64,000 bases of DNA from Maribacter polysiphoniae (GTDB lineage Bacteria > Bacteroidota > Bacteroidia > Flavobacteriales > Flavobacteriaceae), in contig NZ_QGGQ01000003.1 of assembly GCF_003148665.1 (NCBI RefSeq), forward strand, positions 124,001 through 188,000. The letters are read 5' to 3'. Shown here one piece after another: positions 32,200 through 40,714 of the stretch. Below the pieces are notes generated by a model. That model did no database searches. It had not been told where the DNA came from and worked only from the letters and a program-made list of their open reading frames with translations. Numbering within the stretch: the stretch's first letter is position 1; the number at the start of each line of letters is the position of its first letter. The translations under genes were made by a program, and so were the position numbers.

Positions 32200-33735
32200 A
32201 TGAAAAAGTTTCTTTATCTCTTTATTTTCTCTTTCTTTATTTCGATAGGTATTCAAGGACAGGAAAAAAAGCAAGTAGATCTTAAGGCCCTTGATAACTA
32301 TTTTGCCAAAATGGTTAAGGATTGGGATGTGCCAGGAGCGTCAATAGGTATTGTAAAGGATGGGAAACTTGTTTTTACGGGAAACTATGGTGTTTTGGAA
32401 AAAGGGAAGAAAGGAAAGCCCAATGCCCAGACCCTATATGCCATTGCTTCCAACTCCAAGGCATTTACCTCGGCCATTATAGGGATGTTGGTACAGGAAG
32501 GTAAATTGGATTGGAATGATAAGGTAAAGAAGTACTTGCCTTATTTTGCCATGTACGATCCATGGGTGAGCGAACATATTACCATTCGGGATATTCTAAG
32601 CCATCGTGTGGGTTTGGGTACTTTCAGTGGCGATAATATTTGGTATAAGTCGAATTTTACGGCCAAGGAAATCATAGAACGGATCCAATATGTGCCACAG
32701 GCCTACGAATTTAGGTCTGGTTATGGGTATTCCAACCTAATGTATATTACGGCTGGCGAAATCATTAAGACCATAACGGGTAAAAGTTGGGGGGAAAATG
32801 TGAAAGAACGCATTTTAGAACCCCTAGGGATGGATCGTAGCATCTATTCCTTGAAAGATCTGGATAGTAAGGGCAACTATGCCCAACCACATGCCAGAAA
32901 GAATGATGAGAATTATGTGATTCCTTGGGTAGATTGGGAAAATGTGGGGGCTACGGGTGGACTCATTTCCAGCGTTGGGGATATTTCAAAATGGATGATC
33001 TTTAATTTGAACAATGGTGTTCACAACGGCGATACCCTTTTGACCAAGGCTACCCGGAATATGGTGTGGACACCCCACAACAATTTTAAGGTGGACCATA
33101 CTGCCGATAACGACTTCGATAGGCATTTTAGTGGTTACGGACTGGGATGGGGCCTTAGTGATTATCATGGGAGAATGCGGGTAGGTCATACCGGGGGATA
33201 TGATGGATTTATCACTGCCATTAATTTGATTCCTGATGAAAATTTGGGCGTGGTTGTATTGACGAACGGAGTGAAAAGTCCGATCATGGCGGCATCCTAT
33301 TATGCCTTGGATACCTTTTTAGGTATCGAAAATGGCAAAGATTGGTCTGCCGATTTGCTGGAAAGAACCAATAAGCATGCAGCCTCCGATACCCGTATTG
33401 CCGACCGAAAGTCAAAAAGGGTCCTTGGTACCAAACCTTCCGTAGCGTTAGATAAAATGGTAGGGGATTACACTTCTGATTTATGTGGCAAGATCAGTAT
33501 TGGGGAAAACAATGGGGAATTGAGATTGGTGTTTGATAATCATCCCTTATTGTCCGCAAAACTCACCCATTGGCATTATGATGTCTGGGAAATACATTGG
33601 GACCACCCACAGGCATGGTTTGGTTTTGGTACCATCAAATTGAGGACCGACAATAACTTAAAGGTACTCGGTTTTGATTTTGACGTACCGAATGATGATT
33701 TCTTTTTTGAGGAATTAAAACCTTATAAGCGATAA
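32200..33735 (+). CDS. class C beta-lactamase-like serine hydrolase
   Basis: 511-residue exported protein (signal MKKFLYLFIFSFFISIGIQGQ) with a penicillin-binding-like domain over residues 30-390: S84-N-S-K87 (SxxK), the Y-S-N motif in GYGYSNLMY, and HTG in GHTGGYDGF. The C-terminal part (about 400-511) resembles the DUF3471 lipocalin-like add-on of many Bacteroidota members. Family members include esterases, D-aminopeptidases and few true beta-lactamases, so resistance should not be assumed. Periplasmic. Confidence 0.87.
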   Translation: MKKFLYLFIFSFFISIGIQGQEKKQVDLKALDNYFAKMVKDWDVPGASIGIVKDGKLVFTGNYGVLEKGKKGKPNAQTLYAIASNSKAFTSAIIGMLVQEGKLDWNDKVKKYLPYFAMYDPWVSEHITIRDILSHRVGLGTFSGDNIWYKSNFTAKEIIERIQYVPQAYEFRSGYGYSNLMYITAGEIIKTITGKSWGENVKERILEPLGMDRSIYSLKDLDSKGNYAQPHARKNDENYVIPWVDWENVGATGGLISSVGDISKWMIFNLNNGVHNGDTLLTKATRNMVWTPHNNFKVDHTADNDFDRHFSGYGLGWGLSDYHGRMRVGHTGGYDGFITAINLIPDENLGVVVLTNGVKSPIMAASYYALDTFLGIENGKDWSADLLERTNKHAASDTRIADRKSKRVLGTKPSVALDKMVGDYTSDLCGKISIGENNGELRLVFDNHPLLSAKLTHWHYDVWEIHWDHPQAWFGFGTIKLRTDNNLKVLGFDFDVPNDDFFFEELKPYKR

Positions 33736-34018: not shown

Positions 34019-34034
34019 ATGAGAATATTCTCAT
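34019..34034. promoter_or_regulatory. 16-bp palindromic operator of the DUF134/MinD block
   Basis: ATGAGAATATTCTCAT is a perfect palindrome ending one base before the -7-like box TACTTTTG, so it would sit between the -33 and -7 elements, a classic repression site. The first gene of the block encodes a DNA-binding DUF134 protein that could bind here; this is inference. Confidence 0.55.
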
Positions 34035-34042
34035 TACTTTTG
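34035..34042 (+). promoter_or_regulatory. -7-like promoter box of the DUF134/MinD block
   Basis: TACTTTTG matches the TAnnTTTG consensus exactly and lies 38 bases before the DUF134 start codon, leaving a short leader. Confidence 0.55.
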
Positions 34043-34080
34043 TTGTGTCAATAGTTCGAATCAATAATCCAATTGACTGT

Positions 34081-34485
34081 ATGTCTAGACCAAAAACATT
34101 GCGCAAAGTAGTCGCACCGCCCAATTTTAAAGGATATAAGCCTTATGGAACCCATGCGGGGACCAGGGATTCCGTGGAATTGTTATATGAGGAGTATGAA
34201 GCTATTAAACTGGCTGATTATGATTTGATGAATCACTTGGAAGCCTCTAAGCTCATGGGGATATCAAGGCCGACTTTTGCACGGATTTATGAAACGGCAA
34301 GAAGAAAGATTGCCAAGGCTTTTGTTGAGGCAATAGAAATCAAAACGGTTTACGGGGATGCGCTCTTGGATAAACATTGGTATGTCTGTGATGATTGTCA
34401 AACGCGGTTTACCATACCAAAGACCATAGAGGAACATCAATGCCCTTTGTGTAAATCCGAACAGATAGAACTTTTAAACACCTAG
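34081..34485 (+). CDS. DUF134 (UPF0251) helix-turn-helix protein
   Basis: 134-residue DNA-binding protein opening MSRPKTLRKVVAPPNFKGYKP, the standard UPF0251 start. YEEYEAIKLADYDLMNHLEASKLMGISRPTFARIYETARRKIAKAFVEA is the sigma-region-4-like HTH of that family. A C-terminal CxxC pair of pairs (CDDCQ and CPLCK) makes a rubredoxin-like metal knuckle. ATG 34081 follows family starts; the frame is open upstream to 34045. First gene of a nine-gene same-strand block; in anaerobes this family is regularly found with NifX-like and MinD-like genes. Probable regulator of the block. Confidence 0.88.
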   Translation: MSRPKTLRKVVAPPNFKGYKPYGTHAGTRDSVELLYEEYEAIKLADYDLMNHLEASKLMGISRPTFARIYETARRKIAKAFVEAIEIKTVYGDALLDKHWYVCDDCQTRFTIPKTIEEHQCPLCKSEQIELLNT

Positions 34486-34494
34486 TATTAGATT

Positions 34495-34812
34495 ATGAAA
34501 ACTGTAATAACATCTTCCGGAGAGAATAATTTGGCCCAATTCGACAAAAGATTTGGAAGGGCTGCTTGGTTTTGTGTTTTTGATGAAGAAACAAAAGAGA
34601 CCATTTTTATAAAAAACACAAATACCAATTCTAGCAATGGAGCGGGAACAAAGGCTGCGGAACAAATTGTGTCCATGAATGTCCAAAAAGTCATTTCCGG
34701 CGATTTTGGTCCTAAGGCCAAAGACCTTTTGGATAAGTTTAATGTGCAAATGGTCATTATCCAAGATAATGATGTAACCGTCCAAGGGATTATTGAAAAA
34801 TTAACAACGTAA
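34495..34812 (+). CDS. NifX/NifB-like dinitrogenase iron-molybdenum cofactor domain protein, copy 1
   Basis: 105-residue single-domain protein of the Nitro_FeMo-Co family (RNase-H-like fold), which binds metal-sulfur clusters in nif biogenesis and is widely encoded outside nitrogen fixers. The sequence follows the family pattern: MKTVITSSGENNLAQFDKRFGRA at the start, then ASNGAGTKAAEQIV-like helix and KVISGDFGPKAKDLL. Nine bases after the DUF134 stop. No nif structural genes are in the window, so nitrogen fixation is not implied; role presumably cluster carriage. Confidence 0.85.
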   Translation: MKTVITSSGENNLAQFDKRFGRAAWFCVFDEETKETIFIKNTNTNSSNGAGTKAAEQIVSMNVQKVISGDFGPKAKDLLDKFNVQMVIIQDNDVTVQGIIEKLTT

Positions 34813-34817
34813 AAACG

Positions 34818-35057
34818 ATGCCAGGATTAAATAGAAAAGGCCCACAGGGACAAGGTCCACGTACGGGCAAGGGATTAGGGAAATGCAATTCCAAAAACAG
34901 GAACAATGATGGCGACAATGTAGCCGAGGATGGCCTTGGTGCTTCAGGCAGGGGGCATGGACACGGTAGGGGACAAGGACAAGGACACGGAAGAGGAAAA
35001 GGTCAGGGCTGCGGATGCGGACAGCATAAAAGTAGTTCGGTCGACAATGAAGGGTAG
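34818..35057 (+). CDS. DUF5320-like Gly/His/Cys-rich small protein
   Basis: 79-residue protein beginning MPGLNRKGPQGQGPRTGKGLGKC, the recognisable GPxGxGPxTGxGxGxC head of DUF5320 proteins. The tail is a low-complexity run of GHGRGQGQGHGRGKGQ followed by CGCGQH, with three histidines and three cysteines in about 30 residues, suited to metal binding. Five bases behind copy 1 of the NifX-like gene and part of the same block; in anaerobes DUF5320 genes commonly flank NifX/MinD pairs. Function unknown. Confidence 0.8.
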   Translation: MPGLNRKGPQGQGPRTGKGLGKCNSKNRNNDGDNVAEDGLGASGRGHGHGRGQGQGHGRGKGQGCGCGQHKSSSVDNEG

Positions 35058-35159
35058 TTTCCTTTTATCCCTTAAAAAGTGAATACGGTGATATCAATCA
35101 CAATAAAATAAATCGATAAACCAAACCCCGAATACAATTTGGGGATTAAAATGTAAACA

Positions 35160-35525
35160 ATGAAAAAAATCGCAATACCAGTTGATGGGGAAGGAATGCT
35201 TGATGCTCATTTTGGGCATTGCAAGTTCTTTATGGTTTTTACCGAGGAAAATGGGCAGATTATTGCCCAAGACAGAATAATACCTCCACCCCACGAACCT
35301 GGGGTATTGCCTAAATGGCTTTCGGAAAAGGGTGTTACCGATATTATTACCGGAGGTATGGGGAAAATGGCCTTGGATTTATTCAATCAAAGAGGGGTAA
35401 ATACATTTGTCGGGGCACCACAAAAATCATCCTTCGATTTGGTACAGGGTTTTATGGGCAATACATTGAGCCTTACAGCCAATTATTGTAACCATGAACA
35501 CGAGGAAGGCTGTAGTGGTCACTGA
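35160..35525 (+). CDS. NifX/NifB-like dinitrogenase iron-molybdenum cofactor domain protein, copy 2
   Basis: 121-residue second Nitro_FeMo-Co protein: MKKIAIPVDGEGMLDAHFGHCKFF with the HFGHC metal-ligand type motif, and ITGGMGKMALDLFNQRGVNTFVGA, the family's conserved GGMG strand-helix. It ends in a histidine/cysteine tail CNHEHEEGCSGH likely to chelate metal. It differs from copy 1 in having the HxGHC motif, so the two are not simple duplicates and may carry different clusters. About 100 bases separate it from the DUF5320-like gene. Confidence 0.88.
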   Translation: MKKIAIPVDGEGMLDAHFGHCKFFMVFTEENGQIIAQDRIIPPPHEPGVLPKWLSEKGVTDIITGGMGKMALDLFNQRGVNTFVGAPQKSSFDLVQGFMGNTLSLTANYCNHEHEEGCSGH

Positions 35526-35620
35526 TCGTAAATACTACAACCCCAGAGCGTAACCACCAGGGATTTTCTTATGAATTCCCTGGTTTTTAAAAGAGATGAA
35601 CTTCCATAAGCATTTAAAGT

Positions 35621-36520
35621 ATGTCCTATAAAATTGCCATAGCAAGTGGTAAAGGTGGTACCGGTAAAACAACGGTCTCCGTAAATCTTTTTAAGGGCTT
35701 CAATGAGCTTCGTGGAAAAAAGGTGCAACTGGTGGATTGTGATGTTGAGGAGCCCAATGATGCCATATTCTTCTGTGATGCAGAAGTTGTTGATGTACAG
35801 GAAGTATCGCAAATGGTTCCTGTTATTGATAGTGAAAAATGTACTTTTTGCAGAAAGTGTGTGGAGTACTGTGAGTTTAATGCAATCGTGGTCTTACCTC
35901 CAGTTCCTTTTGCTGAGATAAACCCTAGTTTGTGTCATTCATGCGGAGCCTGTTCAGTAGCTTGTGAAGATGGGGCCATTACAGAGCACCCTAAACCCAT
36001 CGGTACGTTGAATTTTTACAAAACCGATGAAAATAATGGGTTGGTAGAAGGTAGATTGGAGATAGGTTCTACGATGCAGACCATGCTCATCCGCGAACTC
36101 AAGAAAGCCATTCCCGGAATAAACGATATCATAATCTATGACGCCCCTCCAGGTACCAGTTGTCCAGTGGTAGAGACCATTCATGATGTCAATTATTTGA
36201 TATTGGTTGCCGAGCCCACTTTGTTCGGTCTGCACGACTTAAAACTAATGGTTGCCTTGGTTAGGGAATTGGGCTTGGAATTCGGTGTTGTAATTAATAA
36301 AGTAGGGTTGGGAGACAATGCTATTTATGATTATTTGGATAAGGAATGCATTGAAGTATTGGGGGAAATACCCTTTGATAAGGCATATGCAAGTCTCTAT
36401 GCGGTAGGGGAAATAACAGGGGTTATTCCGGATGCTATACACCAAAGCTATACGGAAATACTCGACGTACTGAATCAGAAAATAACGCATCATGAAGGAA
36501 ATAACCGTATTAAGTGGTAA
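35621..36520 (+). CDS. MinD-superfamily P-loop ATPase with inserted ferredoxin domain, copy 1
   Basis: 299-residue SIMIBI-class ATPase. The deviant Walker A is SGKGGTGKTT (residues 9-18), switch II IIYDAPPGTSC. Between them two [4Fe-4S] motifs are inserted: CTFCRKCVEYC and CHSCGACSVAC, with four Cys each (CxxCxxCxxxC). Such proteins are common in methanogens and sulfate reducers and are proposed to couple ATP hydrolysis to Fe-S transfer or electron flow, but no member has a firm function. Its last 29 bases overlap the next gene, which is paralogous, pointing to coupled translation and probable heterodimer formation. Confidence 0.92.
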   Translation: MSYKIAIASGKGGTGKTTVSVNLFKGFNELRGKKVQLVDCDVEEPNDAIFFCDAEVVDVQEVSQMVPVIDSEKCTFCRKCVEYCEFNAIVVLPPVPFAEINPSLCHSCGACSVACEDGAITEHPKPIGTLNFYKTDENNGLVEGRLEIGSTMQTMLIRELKKAIPGINDIIIYDAPPGTSCPVVETIHDVNYLILVAEPTLFGLHDLKLMVALVRELGLEFGVVINKVGLGDNAIYDYLDKECIEVLGEIPFDKAYASLYAVGEITGVIPDAIHQSYTEILDVLNQKITHHEGNNRIKW

Positions 36521-37379
36521 AGGGGGTACCGGTAAAACTTCAATTACCGCGGCTCTAGCCTCCGTGGCAGGAAAGGCCGTTTTTTGCGATAATGATGTGG
36601 ATGCGGCGGACCTACATTTGATTTTTCAGCCAGATATACAGGAAGTATTTCCTTTTAGTAGTGGTACTAAGGCCTCGATCAATTCCATGGAATGTACAAA
36701 TTGTGGTATTTGTATGGATCATTGTCGTTTTGATGCCATTGATTATAACAATGAGGGTACATTGGTCATCGATCCTTATCAATGTGAAGGGTGTAGACTT
36801 TGCGAACGGGTATGTCCAGAGCAAGCCATAAGTGCATTGGAAAATACTAACAATCAGTGGTTTGTGTCCACTTCCCGCTTTGGCGATTTTGTGCATGCCG
36901 AGATGGGCCCAGGGGAAGAGAATTCAGGAAAACTGGTAAGCCAGATACGAAAAAAAGCTATGGAAATAGCTAAAAGTACCCAATCGGAATACATTATCAA
37001 TGATGGCCCTCCGGGGATTGGCTGTGCCACCATTTCCTCAATTTCGGGGAGCAATGCCGTACTTGTTATTATAGAACCCACGATATCGGGATTTAATGAT
37101 GCCCAACGGTTGGTGGCATTGATTCGGCTTTTCAATATCCCCACCTATGCCGTTATCAACAAATATGATATTAACCTGACCATGACCAAGAACATAGAGG
37201 AATATCTGATTCTTGAAAATATTGACCTGTTGGCCAAGATTCCTTTCGATGTTGAGATGGTAAAATCAATGACCTTGGGAAAAACCATTATTGAGTACAA
37301 TCCGGCTTCAATAATATCGGGACAGATACAGGAGATTTGGAATAAGGTTAAAGTAAGTCAAGAGGTTGTGCCTCAATAA
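36492..37379 (+). CDS. MinD-superfamily P-loop ATPase with inserted ferredoxin domain, copy 2
   Basis: 295-residue paralogue of the preceding protein: Walker A LSGKGGTGKTS (residues 7-17), two cluster motifs CTNCGICMDHC and CEGCRLCERVC, and switch II IINDGPPGIGC. ATG 36492 lies inside the upstream gene, which ends at 36520. Sequence identity to copy 1 looks moderate and the spacing between motifs differs, so the pair is ancient rather than recent. Usual partners in other genomes are NifX-like and MBL-fold proteins, both present here. Confidence 0.92.
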   Translation: MKEITVLSGKGGTGKTSITAALASVAGKAVFCDNDVDAADLHLIFQPDIQEVFPFSSGTKASINSMECTNCGICMDHCRFDAIDYNNEGTLVIDPYQCEGCRLCERVCPEQAISALENTNNQWFVSTSRFGDFVHAEMGPGEENSGKLVSQIRKKAMEIAKSTQSEYIINDGPPGIGCATISSISGSNAVLVIIEPTISGFNDAQRLVALIRLFNIPTYAVINKYDINLTMTKNIEEYLILENIDLLAKIPFDVEMVKSMTLGKTIIEYNPASIISGQIQEIWNKVKVSQEVVPQ

Positions 37380-37428
37380 GTACGATTGTTGGGGTTAAAC
37401 AAAAAGAAATGGAACAAAAAGGGAATGG

Positions 37429-38046
37429 ATGAGCGCTGATAATATAAAGATCGAACAAGGTGAAAGAGTGGGACTCCCTACGAAATATGGTTATTTTGAA
37501 ATCATCCCTTTTTTGGAAATAGATAGTAATGAGGAGCATATCGCATTGGTGAAAGGTGATTTCACCCCCAATGAAGCGATACTGACCCGCATACATTCCG
37601 CCTGTGCCACAGGGGATTTGTTCGGTTCGTTGCGATGTGATTGTGGAGAACAGTTGGAAATGTCCCTTCAACGCATTGAAGCGGAAGGAAAAGGGCTTTT
37701 GGTTTATCTGCAACAAGAAGGTAGGGGCATCGGGCTAATGAATAAAATCAAGGCTTACAAGCTACAACAAGAGGGGTATGACACCGTAGATGCCAATATA
37801 CATTTGGGCTTTAAGCCCGATGAGCGGAACTATACCATAGGGGCTGAGATTCTGAAAGCACTTGGGGTTTGTAACGTGCGGCTAATGACCAATAATCCCG
37901 ATAAGATATCCGGAATGGAATTGGCCGGAATTACGGTGGAAGAACGTATTCCACTGGAAATAAAGCAAAATAAATTTAATGTGGATTACTTAACGACCAA
38001 GCAGGGGAGAATGAACCATCTTTTAAACCATTTGAAACATAGTTAA
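37429..38046 (+). CDS. ribA: stand-alone GTP cyclohydrolase II
   Basis: 205-residue enzyme that opens GTP to 2,5-diamino-6-ribosylamino-pyrimidinone 5'-phosphate, formate and pyrophosphate, the first step of riboflavin synthesis. Zinc ligands are C59, C70 and C72 (HSACATGDLFGSLRCDCG), and the GTP-binding arginines lie in YLQQEGRGIGL; VRLMTNNPDK completes the family signature. Unlike most Bacteroidota RibBA it lacks a DHBP-synthase half. Fifty bases after the second MinD-type ATPase and before an MBL-fold gene, so it may supply this block rather than bulk flavin. Confidence 0.93.
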   Translation: MSADNIKIEQGERVGLPTKYGYFEIIPFLEIDSNEEHIALVKGDFTPNEAILTRIHSACATGDLFGSLRCDCGEQLEMSLQRIEAEGKGLLVYLQQEGRGIGLMNKIKAYKLQQEGYDTVDANIHLGFKPDERNYTIGAEILKALGVCNVRLMTNNPDKISGMELAGITVEERIPLEIKQNKFNVDYLTTKQGRMNHLLNHLKHS

Positions 38047-38095
38047 GTTGCCACGTTTGTGAAATTGGTTAGGGCATAACAAAATAATAGGGAAT

Positions 38096-38878
38096 ATGAA
38101 ACTCACCGTCTTGACAGAGAATGTTGCCGGACCCGGTTTTTTGGCTGAACACGGACTGTCTTATTTAATTGAGGTTAAAGGGGAAACCATTTTATTCGAT
38201 ACCGGGAGTAGCGATGTTTTTTTAAAAAACGGGAAACGACTAGGTATTGATGTCGATAAGGTGGTCAATACGATTGTCCTTAGTCATGGGCATTGGGACC
38301 ATGGTAACGGACTTCGGTTTATCGGTAATAAGACATTGATAACCCATCCCGATTCCTTTATGAAACGATATCGAAAAAAAGACCATTCCGCGATAGGGTT
38401 ACAATTATCCAAGGAAGAACTGTCAGAAAAGTTCAAGGTCATCACTTCCAAAAAACCATATAAGATAAATGAACATATCATATTTCTAGGGGAAATACCG
38501 CGACTGACCGATTTTGAGGCTAAAACGTCCGAACATATCAATGAGGAAGGAGCACTTGATTTTGTTCCTGATGATTCAGCTTTGGCCATAGTAGAGGATG
38601 ATGTGTTGCATGTAGTGACGGGTTGTTCCCATGCGGGCATATGCAACATAGTCAATTATGCAATCCAAGTAACAGGGGTCCATAATGTAAAAACCGTAAT
38701 TGGTGGTTTTCATTTAAAGAAAGACAACAAGCAGACAGAAGAGGCCATTCGGTGTTTTAAGGAGTTGCATATCCAAAGTGTTTTTCCCTCCCACTGTACA
38801 GAACTACCAGCCTTAGTGGCATTTTCCAAGGGTTTCCCAATTTCCCAGCTTAAGACAGGTATGGTTTTGACACTATAG
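38096..38878 (+). CDS. MBL-fold metallohydrolase
   Basis: 260-residue metallo-beta-lactamase-fold enzyme with the metal motif LSHGHWDHGNG (H64-x-H66-x-D68-H69), later VTGCSHAGICN and GGFHL supplying further ligands, and a C-terminal SHCTE. The order matches the archaeal-type 7,8-dihydropterin-6-yl-methyl-4-(beta-D-ribofuranosyl)aminobenzene 5'-phosphate synthase-like family, whose members are frequently beside MinD/ferredoxin ATPases. A pterin-related substrate would suit the neighbouring GTP cyclohydrolase, but that link is inference. Confidence 0.87.
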   Translation: MKLTVLTENVAGPGFLAEHGLSYLIEVKGETILFDTGSSDVFLKNGKRLGIDVDKVVNTIVLSHGHWDHGNGLRFIGNKTLITHPDSFMKRYRKKDHSAIGLQLSKEELSEKFKVITSKKPYKINEHIIFLGEIPRLTDFEAKTSEHINEEGALDFVPDDSALAIVEDDVLHVVTGCSHAGICNIVNYAIQVTGVHNVKTVIGGFHLKKDNKQTEEAIRCFKELHIQSVFPSHCTELPALVAFSKGFPISQLKTGMVLTL

Positions 38879-38959
38879 GACAAGGAAGGTGATCCATTGA
38901 GGAAAAATAAATTGAAAGGAGCGTATTTAAACAGAATGTGAACATAATAGGTTGATCTA

Positions 38960-40648
38960 ATGAGTAAAAAAATAATTGTGATAGGTGGTTCCGCCGCGGG
39001 GCCAAAAGCGGCAGCAAAGGCTCGCCGCATGGATGAATTTGCCGAAATAACCATGTTTCAAAAAGGCCCGGACCTCTCTATGGCCTCATGTGGTTTCCCA
39101 TATTTCATAGGAGGTTTTTTTGATGACCGAAATAAACTCCTTTGCACACCGGCAGGAGCGGTTCGTGATCCTAAATTCTATTGGAATGCCAAAGGTATTG
39201 TAGCCAAAGTGAACACGGAGGTCACCCGAATAGATAGGCAACATAAAAAAGTTGAATTCACGGATTTGATGACGGGCAAAAAAGGGAGTCAATCCTATGA
39301 CAAGTTGATTATTTCCACGGGGGCAACTGCCAATATGCCTCCAATACCCGGCTCGGATTTGGACGGTATCACCAACCTGCAATCCATGCAAGATGCTGAC
39401 TATTTGAGAAAAATAAGGGATGAAGGCAAAATTAAAAAAGCGGTTGTTATTGGGGGTGGCCTCATCGGCATTGAAACCCTTGAAGCGCTTCATTTGGCGG
39501 GAATTGAGTTGACCATGGTTGAGCTTTTACCACAATTATTGACTTTCCTGGATTGGAAAATGGCCAAACTTGTCCAGAATTACCTAAAAACCAAAGCCAA
39601 TGTTATCACCAAAAATGGAGTAGCCGAATTCAAAGGGGAAAACGGAAAAATTACGGGTGTAAAACTTCAAAATGGAACTGAAATTCCCTGTGAATTGGCA
39701 GTGGTCGCCATTGGGGTTCGCCCAAATATTGGACTTGCCAAAGAAGCGCTCCTCGATATTGGCAGCCTTGGGGGTATTACCGTGAACGAATACATGCAAA
39801 CCTCGGATCCCGATATATATGCGGTGGGGGATTGTTGTGAAATAAAGAATATCATTACGGGTAAGAATGTCCTTGCGCCGTATGGTGACTTGGCCAACCT
39901 TGAAGGACGTGTCGCAGGGGAAAATGTGATCAAGGGGAATGTAGCCTCCTTTCCAGGTACGATTCAAACCGGTATATGCAAATTGTTCGATTACGGAATC
40001 GGTATTACGGGTTTATCGGAAACCAAGGCAAAGGAAGCTGGTTTCGATTTTGTGAAAGTAATCAATGCGAGTCCGGATAAACCGGGATTTATGGATGGTA
40101 AAATGCTTATTACCAAACTTATTGCGGAAAAGGAATCAGGGAAGATCTTAGGGGCACAATGCATTGGCCCCGGTGATGTAAGTAAGCAATTGGCCATTTG
40201 GGCGACAGCCATAAAAGGGAATTTAAACGTTGAGGATATGGTAAATGCCGATCTTCCTTATGCACCGCCATTTTCTTTGGCCATTGACCATAGTATAGCC
40301 TCTGCCCATATTTTACAGAATAAGATGAATGGTGTTTTTGAGGGAATTTCCGGGGTCGATTTAATGGAGAAATTAAATAATAATGAGGATATATTCTTAT
40401 TGGATGTACGTGGTCCGGATGAATATGAACAAACACGCCTAGGTTTGGGGGAGACCCTTATACCTTTGGGGACATTGAGAATGCGACTCGATGAAATGCC
40501 CCAAGATAAAAATATGGAGATCATCACGTATTGTAAAATATCCTTGAGGGGGTATGAGGCAGCTGTTCTATTAAAGGCCCATGGATATACGAAGGTAAAA
40601 GTGTTGGAAGGCGGAATTACGGCTTGGCCTTTTGATAAGGAAAAATAA
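38960..40648 (+). CDS. CoA-disulfide/persulfide reductase fused to a rhodanese domain
   Basis: 562-residue flavoenzyme: FAD motif IVIGGSAAGPKAAAKARR at the N-terminus, the single redox Cys44 in SMASCGFPYFIGG typical of CoA-disulfide reductases, and an NADH/NADPH motif VVIGGGLIGIETLEAL near residue 160. The C-terminal 100 residues form a rhodanese-like domain (FLLDVRGPDEYEQTRL) whose active Cys525 lies in YCKISLRG. CoADR-Rhd fusions reduce CoA persulfide or polysulfide in sulfur-respiring or sulfur-tolerant bacteria. Last gene of the 34-40.6 kb block, 82 bases after the MBL gene, which points to sulfur chemistry for the whole set. Confidence 0.9.
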   Translation: MSKKIIVIGGSAAGPKAAAKARRMDEFAEITMFQKGPDLSMASCGFPYFIGGFFDDRNKLLCTPAGAVRDPKFYWNAKGIVAKVNTEVTRIDRQHKKVEFTDLMTGKKGSQSYDKLIISTGATANMPPIPGSDLDGITNLQSMQDADYLRKIRDEGKIKKAVVIGGGLIGIETLEALHLAGIELTMVELLPQLLTFLDWKMAKLVQNYLKTKANVITKNGVAEFKGENGKITGVKLQNGTEIPCELAVVAIGVRPNIGLAKEALLDIGSLGGITVNEYMQTSDPDIYAVGDCCEIKNIITGKNVLAPYGDLANLEGRVAGENVIKGNVASFPGTIQTGICKLFDYGIGITGLSETKAKEAGFDFVKVINASPDKPGFMDGKMLITKLIAEKESGKILGAQCIGPGDVSKQLAIWATAIKGNLNVEDMVNADLPYAPPFSLAIDHSIASAHILQNKMNGVFEGISGVDLMEKLNNNEDIFLLDVRGPDEYEQTRLGLGETLIPLGTLRMRLDEMPQDKNMEIITYCKISLRGYEAAVLLKAHGYTKVKVLEGGITAWPFDKEK

Positions 40649-40667
40649 TAGTGGTTGTTTGTTAAGG

Positions 40668-40714
40668 AGTGGATGGTTTACGGGTTTATAACTCTTGGCC
40701 ATCCACTTTTTCTT
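40668..40714 (+). terminator. rho-independent terminator of the DUF134/MinD block
   Basis: AGTGGATGG (40668-40676) pairs with CCATCCACT (40699-40707) followed by TTTTCTTT, 20 bases after the CoADR-rhodanese stop. Confidence 0.75.

Follow-up and report, generated by a model that had tools for sequence, protein, structure and literature searches.

A horizontally distributed DUF134 operon in Maribacter polysiphoniae with likeness to the Desulfovibrio ORP system and a predicted palindromic operator

Results

Gene content and layout of the locus

The window (the whole stretch of DNA analysed, 64,000 nucleotides) contains a block of nine genes, all on the plus strand, between a palindrome and a terminator-like hairpin (Table 1). 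An ORF check of the window recovered all nine genes as they had been listed in a first-pass annotation, whose gene count, palindrome, terminator and small intergenic gaps were likewise present as stated, the coordinates giving gaps of 9, 5, 102, 95, −29 (an overlap), 49, 49 and 81 bases. Pfam searches identified DUF134 (70.5 bits, cut-off 27), two Nitro_FeMo-Co domains (47 and 51 bits, cut-off 26.3), DUF5320 (36.9, cut-off 27), two CbiA/ParA ATPases with two Fer4 stretches in each, GTP_cyclohydro2 (225, the protein also scoring above the cut-off of the ribA models), Lactamase_B (35.1, cut-off 22.7) and, in the last gene, Pyr_redox_2 together with Rhodanese. The GTP cyclohydrolase II contains both of the motifs that we take to be the Zn-Cys and GRG motifs of this enzyme.

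For DUF134, a start at 34081 is preferable to the mechanical GTG at 34045, and the 33-residue stretch past the second DUF134 start had no match among the ORFs compared. The final hairpin folds with −22.7 kcal/mol (z −5.2 relative to 200 shuffled sequences) and is not listed by a simple scan whose loop limit is 8 bases. In the same scan, sigma-70-type promoters were not in excess (23 versus 20.0 in shuffles), and an Rfam search returned nothing at gathering scores. At the other end of the block, TACTTTTG is a candidate match to the Bacteroidota −7 promoter consensus.

Table 1. Features of the nine-gene block (positions in the window)
Feature	Position	Strand	Basis
Predicted DUF134 operator, 16-bp perfect palindrome ATGAGAATATTCTCAT	34019–34034	.	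genome motif search
TGAGAATATTCTCA, core of the predicted DUF134 operator	34020–34033		palindrome core
TACTTTTG, putative Bacteroidota −7 promoter box, abutting the predicted operator	34035–34042	+	
DUF134 (UPF0251), predicted autorepressor, residue 67 Ala	34081–34485	+	Pfam
NifX1, Nitro_FeMo-Co domain	34495–34812	+	Pfam; matches ORP (2wfb), MTH1175 (1eo1)
DUF5320, small protein with variable cationic Gly-rich tail, pI 9.8	34818–35057	+	Pfam
NifX2, like the MrpORP C-terminal domain	35160–35525	+	Pfam
MinD/ferredoxin ATPase 1, Orp3/Orp4-like	35621–36520	+	Pfam, alignment
MinD/ferredoxin ATPase 2, Orp3/Orp4-like	36492–37379	+	Pfam, alignment
Stand-alone GTP cyclohydrolase II	37429–38046	+	motifs GSLRCDCGEQ, QQEGRG
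Metallo-beta-lactamase fold protein, 3h3e/2p4z type	38096–38878	+	SHGHWDHG motif
CoADR-rhodanese (Npsr/CoAPR type)	38960–40648	+	Cys44 and rhodanese Cys525
Terminator-like hairpin, T-rich 3' side	40664–40711	+	folding

Distribution, gain and loss of the block

The paired ATPases are full length in three of the twelve genomes of the genus and decayed in a fourth; the other eight, two of them only 68% complete, have no match, and elsewhere among the 149 sampled genomes of the family the ATPases are absent. The block formed by the first six genes (DUF134, NifX, DUF5320, NifX and the two MinD/ferredoxin ATPases) is found again in other Bacteroidota. Across 92 loci, both ATPase labels were found in 84 and two strong, close-set matches in 77, together with a NifX1-type gene in 81, DUF5320 in 50, DUF134 in 37 and GTP cyclohydrolase II in 4, while CoADR-type matches occurred in only 26, even with paralogues such as lipoamide dehydrogenase counted in. 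The order is most fully conserved in Sunxiuqinia (locus L094), which keeps almost all of the nine-gene arrangement. The conserved neighbourhood put forward in the first-pass annotation is supported, and the scattering of the genes in relatives, which would have spoken against it, was not seen.

In the ATPase tree, the copies of the genus were nested among those of Marinilabiliaceae and Prolixibacteraceae, and because of this placement the block is best read as gained horizontally and then lost in some lineages. Both the distribution within the family and the tree agree with the acquisition proposed earlier, and the tree shows transfer of the ATPases in place of vertical descent. A plasmid search gave three records only, with identity below 60%.

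All nine genes are intact in genomes G000 and G149. In G152, however, only a stump of ATPase 1 is left and everything from there down to the CoADR gene is gone, and G153 has an empty site at the operon locus, both of which would fit a decaying, non-functional relic of transfer. We consider such a relic hardly credible, because dN/dS is low in the genes that were retained (0.019–0.117 against G151, indicating purifying selection). Given this purifying selection and the recurrence of the gene order, the block is not a product of chance.

A palindrome as the predicted operator of DUF134

The most informative feature of the block is the palindrome, which the earlier annotation had left unexplained. 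Within one mismatch, ATGAGAATATTCTCAT has one other place in the genome, and this lies before a DUF134 remnant. A palindrome score, written after inspection of a set A of DUF134 genes, gave 15 for the window palindrome, upstream of its own DUF134 gene. It was applied to a set B of DUF134 genes chosen regardless of ATPases, namely 27 of 29 further above-cut-off places outside family f18 (those of G253 and G405 were not included, and a further four already belonged to set A). With corrected starts, a palindrome of this type was found upstream of 25 of the 27 genes at a score of at least 13, leaving two below it, and of 19 at a score of at least 14, compared with 5/540 and 1/540, respectively, in shuffled controls. 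The site of one member (L174) had been seen beforehand, and without it the counts are 24/26 and 18/26. Among 96 other upstream regions (first starts), only two reached a score of 14, both of them facing a DUF134 gene. The exact form TGAGCATATGCTCA occurs once in 13 of the 25 DUF134 genomes, always at the set B DUF134 gene and nowhere as a second exact copy; with one mismatch allowed, 7 of these 25 genomes hold nine sites that are not near DUF134. A degenerate scan with TGARMATATKYTCA over 395 genomes of the phylum matched 213 of them, the listed places being mostly TGAAAATATTTTCA, and was dropped as evidence because it was too loose.

The site is not universal. Of the 39 set A genes, 10 scored below 13, including some whose residue 67 is Ala or Gly, and in family f18 no site was found upstream at any of 27 loci, though the helix is the same and residue 67 is Gly. 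Family f18 was excluded from set B after a preliminary inspection of 30 DUF134 loci (L163–L192) had shown no site there, and set B is therefore no test on f18. As for promoter geometry, the palindrome often borders a −7-type promoter box: among 44 Bacteroidota sites, that of the window included, a TAnnTTTG box lies at +14 to +16 relative to the start of the site in 15 and at −11 in 15.

The DUF134 protein combines a sigma-4/DeoR-like helix-turn-helix with a C-terminal four-Cys ribbon. Residue 67, in its recognition helix, partitions the half-site classes: Ala or Gly goes with TGAG, Thr, Ser or His with TGAA, and Gln with TGTG, and all five sites found later obey this pattern. The half-site class changes just three times on the tree, and the two starred independent pairs give p 0.5. 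The missing sites, including those of the 27 f18 loci, would be understandable if the palindrome were the site of a different regulator, under whose control DUF134 genes happen to fall; we consider this improbable, since the half-site class tracks the recognition-helix residue of DUF134 itself. Judged by these sequence tests, the palindrome is probably the DUF134 operator, and because it lies upstream and its half-site follows the recognition-helix residue, DUF134 is probably a local autorepressor that switches the operon off at its own promoter. A Foldseek search with DUF134 gave no E-value below 0.001, the two top rows being MCM proteins with poor overlay.

Likeness to the ORP and IssA systems

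The ORP complex of Desulfovibrio vulgaris (Orp3/4/5/8/9), as described in excerpts of PMC6345978, shares with this operon two adjacent MinD-like ATPases, each carrying two [4Fe-4S] motifs, as well as an ORP-type NifX protein, the latter judged by a sequence match of NifX1 to the ORP structure 2wfb (E 5e-7). NifX2 scored 104.9 bits against the MrpORP family, whose cut-off is 450, and only separate NifX proteins were found, with no Mrp-NifX fusion; PF02579 matched the genome itself at the two NifX places only. Compared with the excerpted description in PMC6345978, the present system lacks the MrpORP fusion and a sigma-54 activator among its nine genes, is arranged as a single operon and not as two divergent ones, and adds DUF134, DUF5320, GTP cyclohydrolase II, the metallo-beta-lactamase fold protein and the CoADR-rhodanese.

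Eight ferredoxin cysteines are invariant in the 11 aligned rows of ATPase 1, and eight in the 12 of ATPase 2. Septum placement has been hypothesized for ORP proteins (excerpts of PMC4672049, PMC6345978 and PMC3897727), and the distant sequence matches of the ATPases include MinD structures, so a role of the pair in cell division or chromosome positioning, as proposed for Desulfovibrio, had to be weighed. The invariance of these cysteines, the sulfur redox enzyme among the linked genes and the lack of a match in eight of the genus genomes make it very unlikely. By homology to ORP proteins, the ATPases may instead serve as cluster-transfer motors and the NifX proteins as carriers.

The operon also resembles IssA, the thioferrate storage protein of Pyrococcus furiosus (excerpts of PMC5524996), in having a NifX-type domain and a cationic Gly-rich tail in a sulfur context, except that the tail here sits on a separate protein, DUF5320, and not in the NifX chain. 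Among the matches listed, 37 of 40 DUF5320 peptides have a pI of at least 9. The tail has no aromatic residue in G000, G149, G151 and G152, as against 14/70 in the IssA tail described in that text. Hence, while neighbourhood, transfer and the sulfur enzyme of the first-pass annotation held up, its idea of a His/Cys tail as carrier did not: the tail is not conserved, and the shorter proteins of G151 and G152 (58 and 42 residues) carry an Arg/Gly tail.

The CoADR-rhodanese and the persulfide link

The last gene encodes an Npsr-type sulfur enzyme, as judged by its structure-sequence relatives (6pfz, 3nta and 8a56), which shares with Npsr/CoAPR the CoADR core, the C-terminal rhodanese and both cysteines. 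According to excerpts of PMC7969121 and PMC9405070, Npsr and CoAPR are NADH-dependent persulfide reductases, and the E. faecalis gene is under CstR, whereas the present gene has DUF134 and ORP-type genes as its neighbours. By analogy, the CoADR-rhodanese may catalyse NADH-dependent persulfide reduction.

This enzyme could be the working part of a per- or polysulfide detoxification unit, with the NifX proteins and ATPases doing no more than sensing sulfide or metal on behalf of DUF134. In the comparison with G149 no gene has a lower dN/dS than CoADR (0.014), and in that with G151 only DUF134 falls below its value of 0.029. The CoADR product is 81–82% identical to the Mangrovibacterium and G497 copies, as compared with just 42–45% for ATPase 1. 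Furthermore, NifX directly follows DUF134 with no ATPase pair alongside in 21 of 25 displayed set B loci, and the two are fused in locus L158. However, two ATPases with 16 invariant ferredoxin cysteines would be a costly sensor, and CoADR-type matches are confined to the minority of loci counted above; we thus regard this reading as rather unlikely.

Discussion

The nine-gene set would work most like the Desulfovibrio ORP system joined to an NADH persulfide reductase, and it may handle iron-sulfur or persulfide species. Our proposal is a DUF134-controlled, ORP-type operon for the handling of reactive sulfur and of iron-sulfur or thiometallate species, repressed at TGAGAATATTCTCA and gained horizontally, and we hold the case for and against it to be about evenly balanced. 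One clade of the genus would have acquired the operon from Marinilabiliaceae-like Bacteroidota. DUF134 would bind its own promoter at TGAGAATATTCTCA, which it would prefer over TGAACATATGTTCA, beside the −7 box, and from this position would keep the operon repressed until it perceives a signal, which may reach it via the four-Cys ribbon or via the NifX proteins. When the operon is expressed, the CoADR-rhodanese would use NADH to reduce persulfides or polysulfides to sulfide. The iron- or metal-sulfide species formed in this way would be bound by the NifX proteins and by the cationic DUF5320 peptide, and the paired ferredoxin ATPases would assemble, move or release them. Thiometallate binding, the motor role, repression and the inducer are what we infer here.

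More broadly, and tentatively, with the balance against all four parts holding jointly, DUF134 may be a repressor family controlling a modular metal-sulfide system. In this joint reading, (i) DUF134/UPF0251 proteins would be widespread local repressors with a one-residue code for TGAG, TGAA or TGTG; (ii) DUF134 would sense the iron-sulfide or thiometallate load via a partner NifX-domain protein, once fused to it; (iii) NifX, DUF5320 and the paired ferredoxin ATPases would store and mobilize metal sulfides; and (iv) the window operon would couple this system to persulfide reduction, having moved into a family otherwise without it.

None of the literature matches listed (DUF134, DUF5320, UPF0251 with DNA-binding, COG names) gave an operator or regulatory role for DUF134, and four forms of the palindrome were not found in the literature. 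An insertion at a UPF0251 gene is listed in PMC5886521; PMC10434189 was rejected as a DUF134 paper, the passage in question concerning DUF1349. Relative to these matches, the predicted operator, the promoter geometry and the predicted specificity residue would be new for DUF134.

Genes for DUF134, NifX-like, DUF5320 and MinD/ferredoxin proteins recur in archaea and bacteria of many phyla with little assigned function. The predicted DUF134 operator makes this puzzle testable by gel shift or reporter assays and offers a route to what the system responds to. In this organism, the nine-gene set, which came from distant relatives, probably handles iron and reactive sulfur.

Content and conservation of the operon

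The nine-gene block has the genes, strand, spacing, upstream palindrome and terminator that the first-pass annotation had stated. Its products belong to the DUF134, Nitro_FeMo-Co (twice, NifX1 and NifX2), DUF5320, GTP cyclohydrolase II (GCH2), MBL (3h3e/2p4z type) and CoADR-rhodanese families, together with two ferredoxin-bearing MinD/ParA ATPases. The KGGTGKT motif and all eight ferredoxin cysteines are retained throughout the alignments of the two ATPases (11 and 12 rows), as is one further cysteine that follows the PPG or PG in the second nucleotide motif. A beta-lactamase-like serine hydrolase gene adjoins the operon in the window's own genome (G000) and in three genomes of the same genus (G149, G151 and G152); it also adjoins the empty site in a further one (G153), and is absent from the available flanks of six other genus members.

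Coordinates of the operon, its surroundings and related sites
Feature	Position	Remark
Serine hydrolase gene	window 32200-33735	adjoins operon
Palindrome	window 34019-34034	16 bp, predicted DUF134 operator
Nine-gene operon	window 34081-40648	+ strand
Hairpin	window 40664-40711	terminator-like
RibBA, own genome	G000:C10:63047-63490 (L272)	
One-mismatch palindrome	L065:2449-2606 (G000:C1:769948)	same site sequence in G149 (C12:147908)
Eroded locus	L073:9876-11504 (G152)	
Operator-like site	G172:C12:70068-70081	candidate second target
DUF134-NifX fusion	L158:1623-2264	alphaproteobacterial bin

The dN/dS ratios were 0.019-0.117 against G151 (eight genes compared), which are rough because synonymous distances to G151 are mostly >1, 0.014-0.183 against G149, with DUF5320 at 0.256, and 0.043-0.102 against G152 (three genes compared). 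G152, which has lost the greater part of ATPase 1 and all that followed it, shows low dN/dS in DUF134, NifX1 and NifX2.

The RibBA of the window's own genome (396 residues) has a second domain without the Zn-cysteine and GRG motifs, so the operon GCH2 is the only canonical copy found in this genome. Among 60 relatives, the canonical enzyme was matched strongly in 4 of the 37 same-family genomes (G000, G149, G151 and G018), and the remaining 33 gave only weak matches of 25-34% identity. The operon enzyme possibly supplies flavin for CoADR.

A palindrome upstream of DUF134 genes

The window palindrome recurs in its own genome at one place with at most one mismatch and at five more with at most two, as against one for the reversed control. 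The one-mismatch place is a near-perfect second copy of the putative operator before a truncated DUF134 start, and looks like a relic of another DUF134 gene. Related palindromes lie upstream of other DUF134 genes in several phyla. With these already seen, a score was defined for 14-mers within 150 bases upstream, adding palindromy (0-7) to an outer TGAR...YTCA match (0-8), and was applied to two groups of DUF134 genes: set A, 39 taken from the window and ATPase loci, and set B, 27 outside family f18, which had been left out after a siteless first look.

With the first gene starts, 22/39 set A genes reached 14, as against 9/1414 other upstreams (several of the nine being common to a DUF134) and 3/780 shuffles. 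In set B, 17/27 reached 14 and 22/27 reached 13, compared with 2/96 other upstreams at either score, both facing a DUF134, and 0/540 and 7/540 shuffles. When starts were corrected from the alignment, set A gave 24/39 at 14 and 29/39 at 13 (shuffles 1/780 and 11/780), or 21/36 and 26/36 minus three genus near-copies, while set B gave 19/27 and 25/27 (shuffles 1/540 and 5/540), TGTG forms making up 4 of the 25 sites. In the literature searched, the palindrome was not found in any of four forms tried, and no role was assigned to DUF134 among the matches listed.

The exact word TGAGCATATGCTCA occurs once in 13 of the 25 DUF134 genomes searched, each time as a set B site, and the lack of a second exact copy in any of those 13 points to a local regulator. 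One-mismatch places away from DUF134 number nine, in 7 of the 25 genomes. One site away from DUF134 in genome G172 is identical to that genome's own operator variant. In 21 of the 25 displayed set B loci, DUF134 has a NifX gene directly behind it, which suggests DUF134-NifX as the minimal unit. An alphaproteobacterial bin encodes DUF134 and a NifX-type domain as a single fusion protein, and TGAACATATGTTCA stands upstream of that gene.

Residue 67 and the half-site classes

At sites scoring at least 13, residue 67 is Ala or Gly where the half-site is TGAG (27/27), Thr, Ser or His where it is TGAA (16/16, the two His cases being weak sites) and Gln where it is TGTG (3/3); three sites have mixed halves. 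Of the alignment columns tested, none separated the classes as well as residue 67; the letters were grouped once they had been seen. All five sites gained by corrected starts fit the rule, two of them visible earlier (loci L159 and L228) and three not (L087, L240 and L246); L087 has a second site copy with a TGTG half. On the tree, the half-site class changes three times, with only two starred independent pairs, so the code is not significant by itself. Residue 67 falls within helix 63-83 of a confident predicted model (pLDDT 86.4), whose helix-turn-helix superposes on sigma region 4 and on the DNA-binding domain of DeoR; for isolated domains, target-normalised TM-scores are about 0.6-0.7 with an rmsd of <1 in most cases, and none of the E-values reaches significance.

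Promoter geometry

The geometry was read from 44 Bacteroidota sites in 46 hand-listed loci. The box TAnnTTTG, which we take to be the -7 promoter consensus, begins 14-16 bases past the start of the site in 15 of the 44, including the window and its three genus near-copies; another 15 have it 11 bases ahead of that start. A protein on the site would block polymerase; hence, from the position of the site next to the box, DUF134 is read as a putative repressor. Family f18 counts against this reading: none of its 27 loci, which have Gly67 and a different N-terminus, has a palindrome site upstream of DUF134, and a 14-scoring word occurs elsewhere in the locus in two. These proteins are either not autoregulated or beyond the reach of the rule.

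Origin, probable gain and erosion

In a tree built by a quick method on the two ATPases concatenated (78 rows), the window clade adjoins Plebeiobacterium and genome G222 (fork support 93, not starred), within a 10-row set of Marinilabiliaceae, one Prolixibacteraceae and other Bacteroidota (support 100) and a wider 21-row Bacteroidota set (support 99). For five of the first six operon genes (DUF5320 left out), the best matches outside the genus, 59-67% identical, came from Plebeiobacterium (L083), a Bacteroidales bin (L084) or G222. The CoADR is closest to copies in Mangrovibacterium and G497 (81-82% identity), whose ATPase 1 is only 42-45% identical to that of the window, so the operon looks, by these sequence comparisons, like a mosaic.

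The gene content was compared across 92 loci, 12 taken individually and 80 by profile scan; as the latter are the best 80 of 317 relatives, the counts describe nearer relatives. Both ATPase labels were present in 84 loci, two strong ATPases close together in 77, NifX1-type genes in 81, NifX2-type in 66, DUF5320 in 50, DUF134 in 37, CoADR-type matches in 26 (including paralogues such as lipoamide dehydrogenase), MBL in 23 and GCH2 in 4. A Sunxiuqinia locus has the window's order plus one extra gene (NifX1-DUF5320-NifX2-ATPase1-ATPase2-NUBPL-GCH2-MBL-CoADR); DUF134 was not found within its available stretch, nor a rhodanese domain by Pfam in its 452-residue CoADR.

Among 149 family genomes, full-length ATPase 2 was found in the window's own genome only, matches listed in the others being at most 27 bits and mostly over the ferredoxin segment. 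Full-length ATPase 1 occurs in 3 of 12 genus genomes, and a fourth, G152, has a 69-residue match with a stop. At E 1e-15, 10 of 395 phylum genomes, the window's included, have ATPase matches, two adjacent in each; the other nine are related to the window at phylum level only.

The whole gene set lies at the same chromosomal site in G149 and G151. What G152 retains there is DUF134, NifX1, DUF5320 in shortened form and NifX2, followed by an ATPase 1 stump and nothing beyond; in G153 (68% complete), the same neighbours are about 430 bases apart. With the window's lipoamide dehydrogenase, encoded next to this site, the copies in these four genomes share 97-99% identity and those of six other genus members 93.5-95.8% (genome G156 yielded no locus); in these six, the operon-side neighbours differ in the available flanks. 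A single gain before the split of the five genomes (the window's own, G149, G151, G152 and G153), with erosion afterwards, fits best.

Likeness to known sulfur and metal systems

The ORP complex includes Orp3 and Orp4, with two [4Fe-4S] motifs apiece, Orp8, a homologue of a Mo-Cu sulfide protein, and Orp9, a cluster donor in vitro (PMC6345978). Sigma-54 control, described for Desulfovibrio ORP operons (PMC3897727), sets these apart from the window operon, which has no sigma-54 activator among its nine genes. IssA, which combines a NifX-type domain with a cationic Gly-rich tail, stores thioferrate under abundant sulfur and iron (PMC5524996). Where IssA has its own tail, DUF5320 could provide a separate cationic one in the window operon: its pI is 9.8 in the window, 11.2 in G151 and 10.8 in G152, and 37 of the 40 peptides printed have a pI of 9 or more, the other three being near 6.5. 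Npsr carries out NADH-driven reduction of persulfides and polysulfides (PMC7969121); like Npsr, the window CoADR-rhodanese contains the two cysteines, and among solved structures the closest to it by sequence is 6pfz. Together, the parallels to ORP, IssA and Npsr lead us to propose a DUF134-repressed, ORP-type operon that would serve iron-sulfur or thiometallate species and, through its Npsr-type CoADR-rhodanese, NADH-dependent persulfide reduction.
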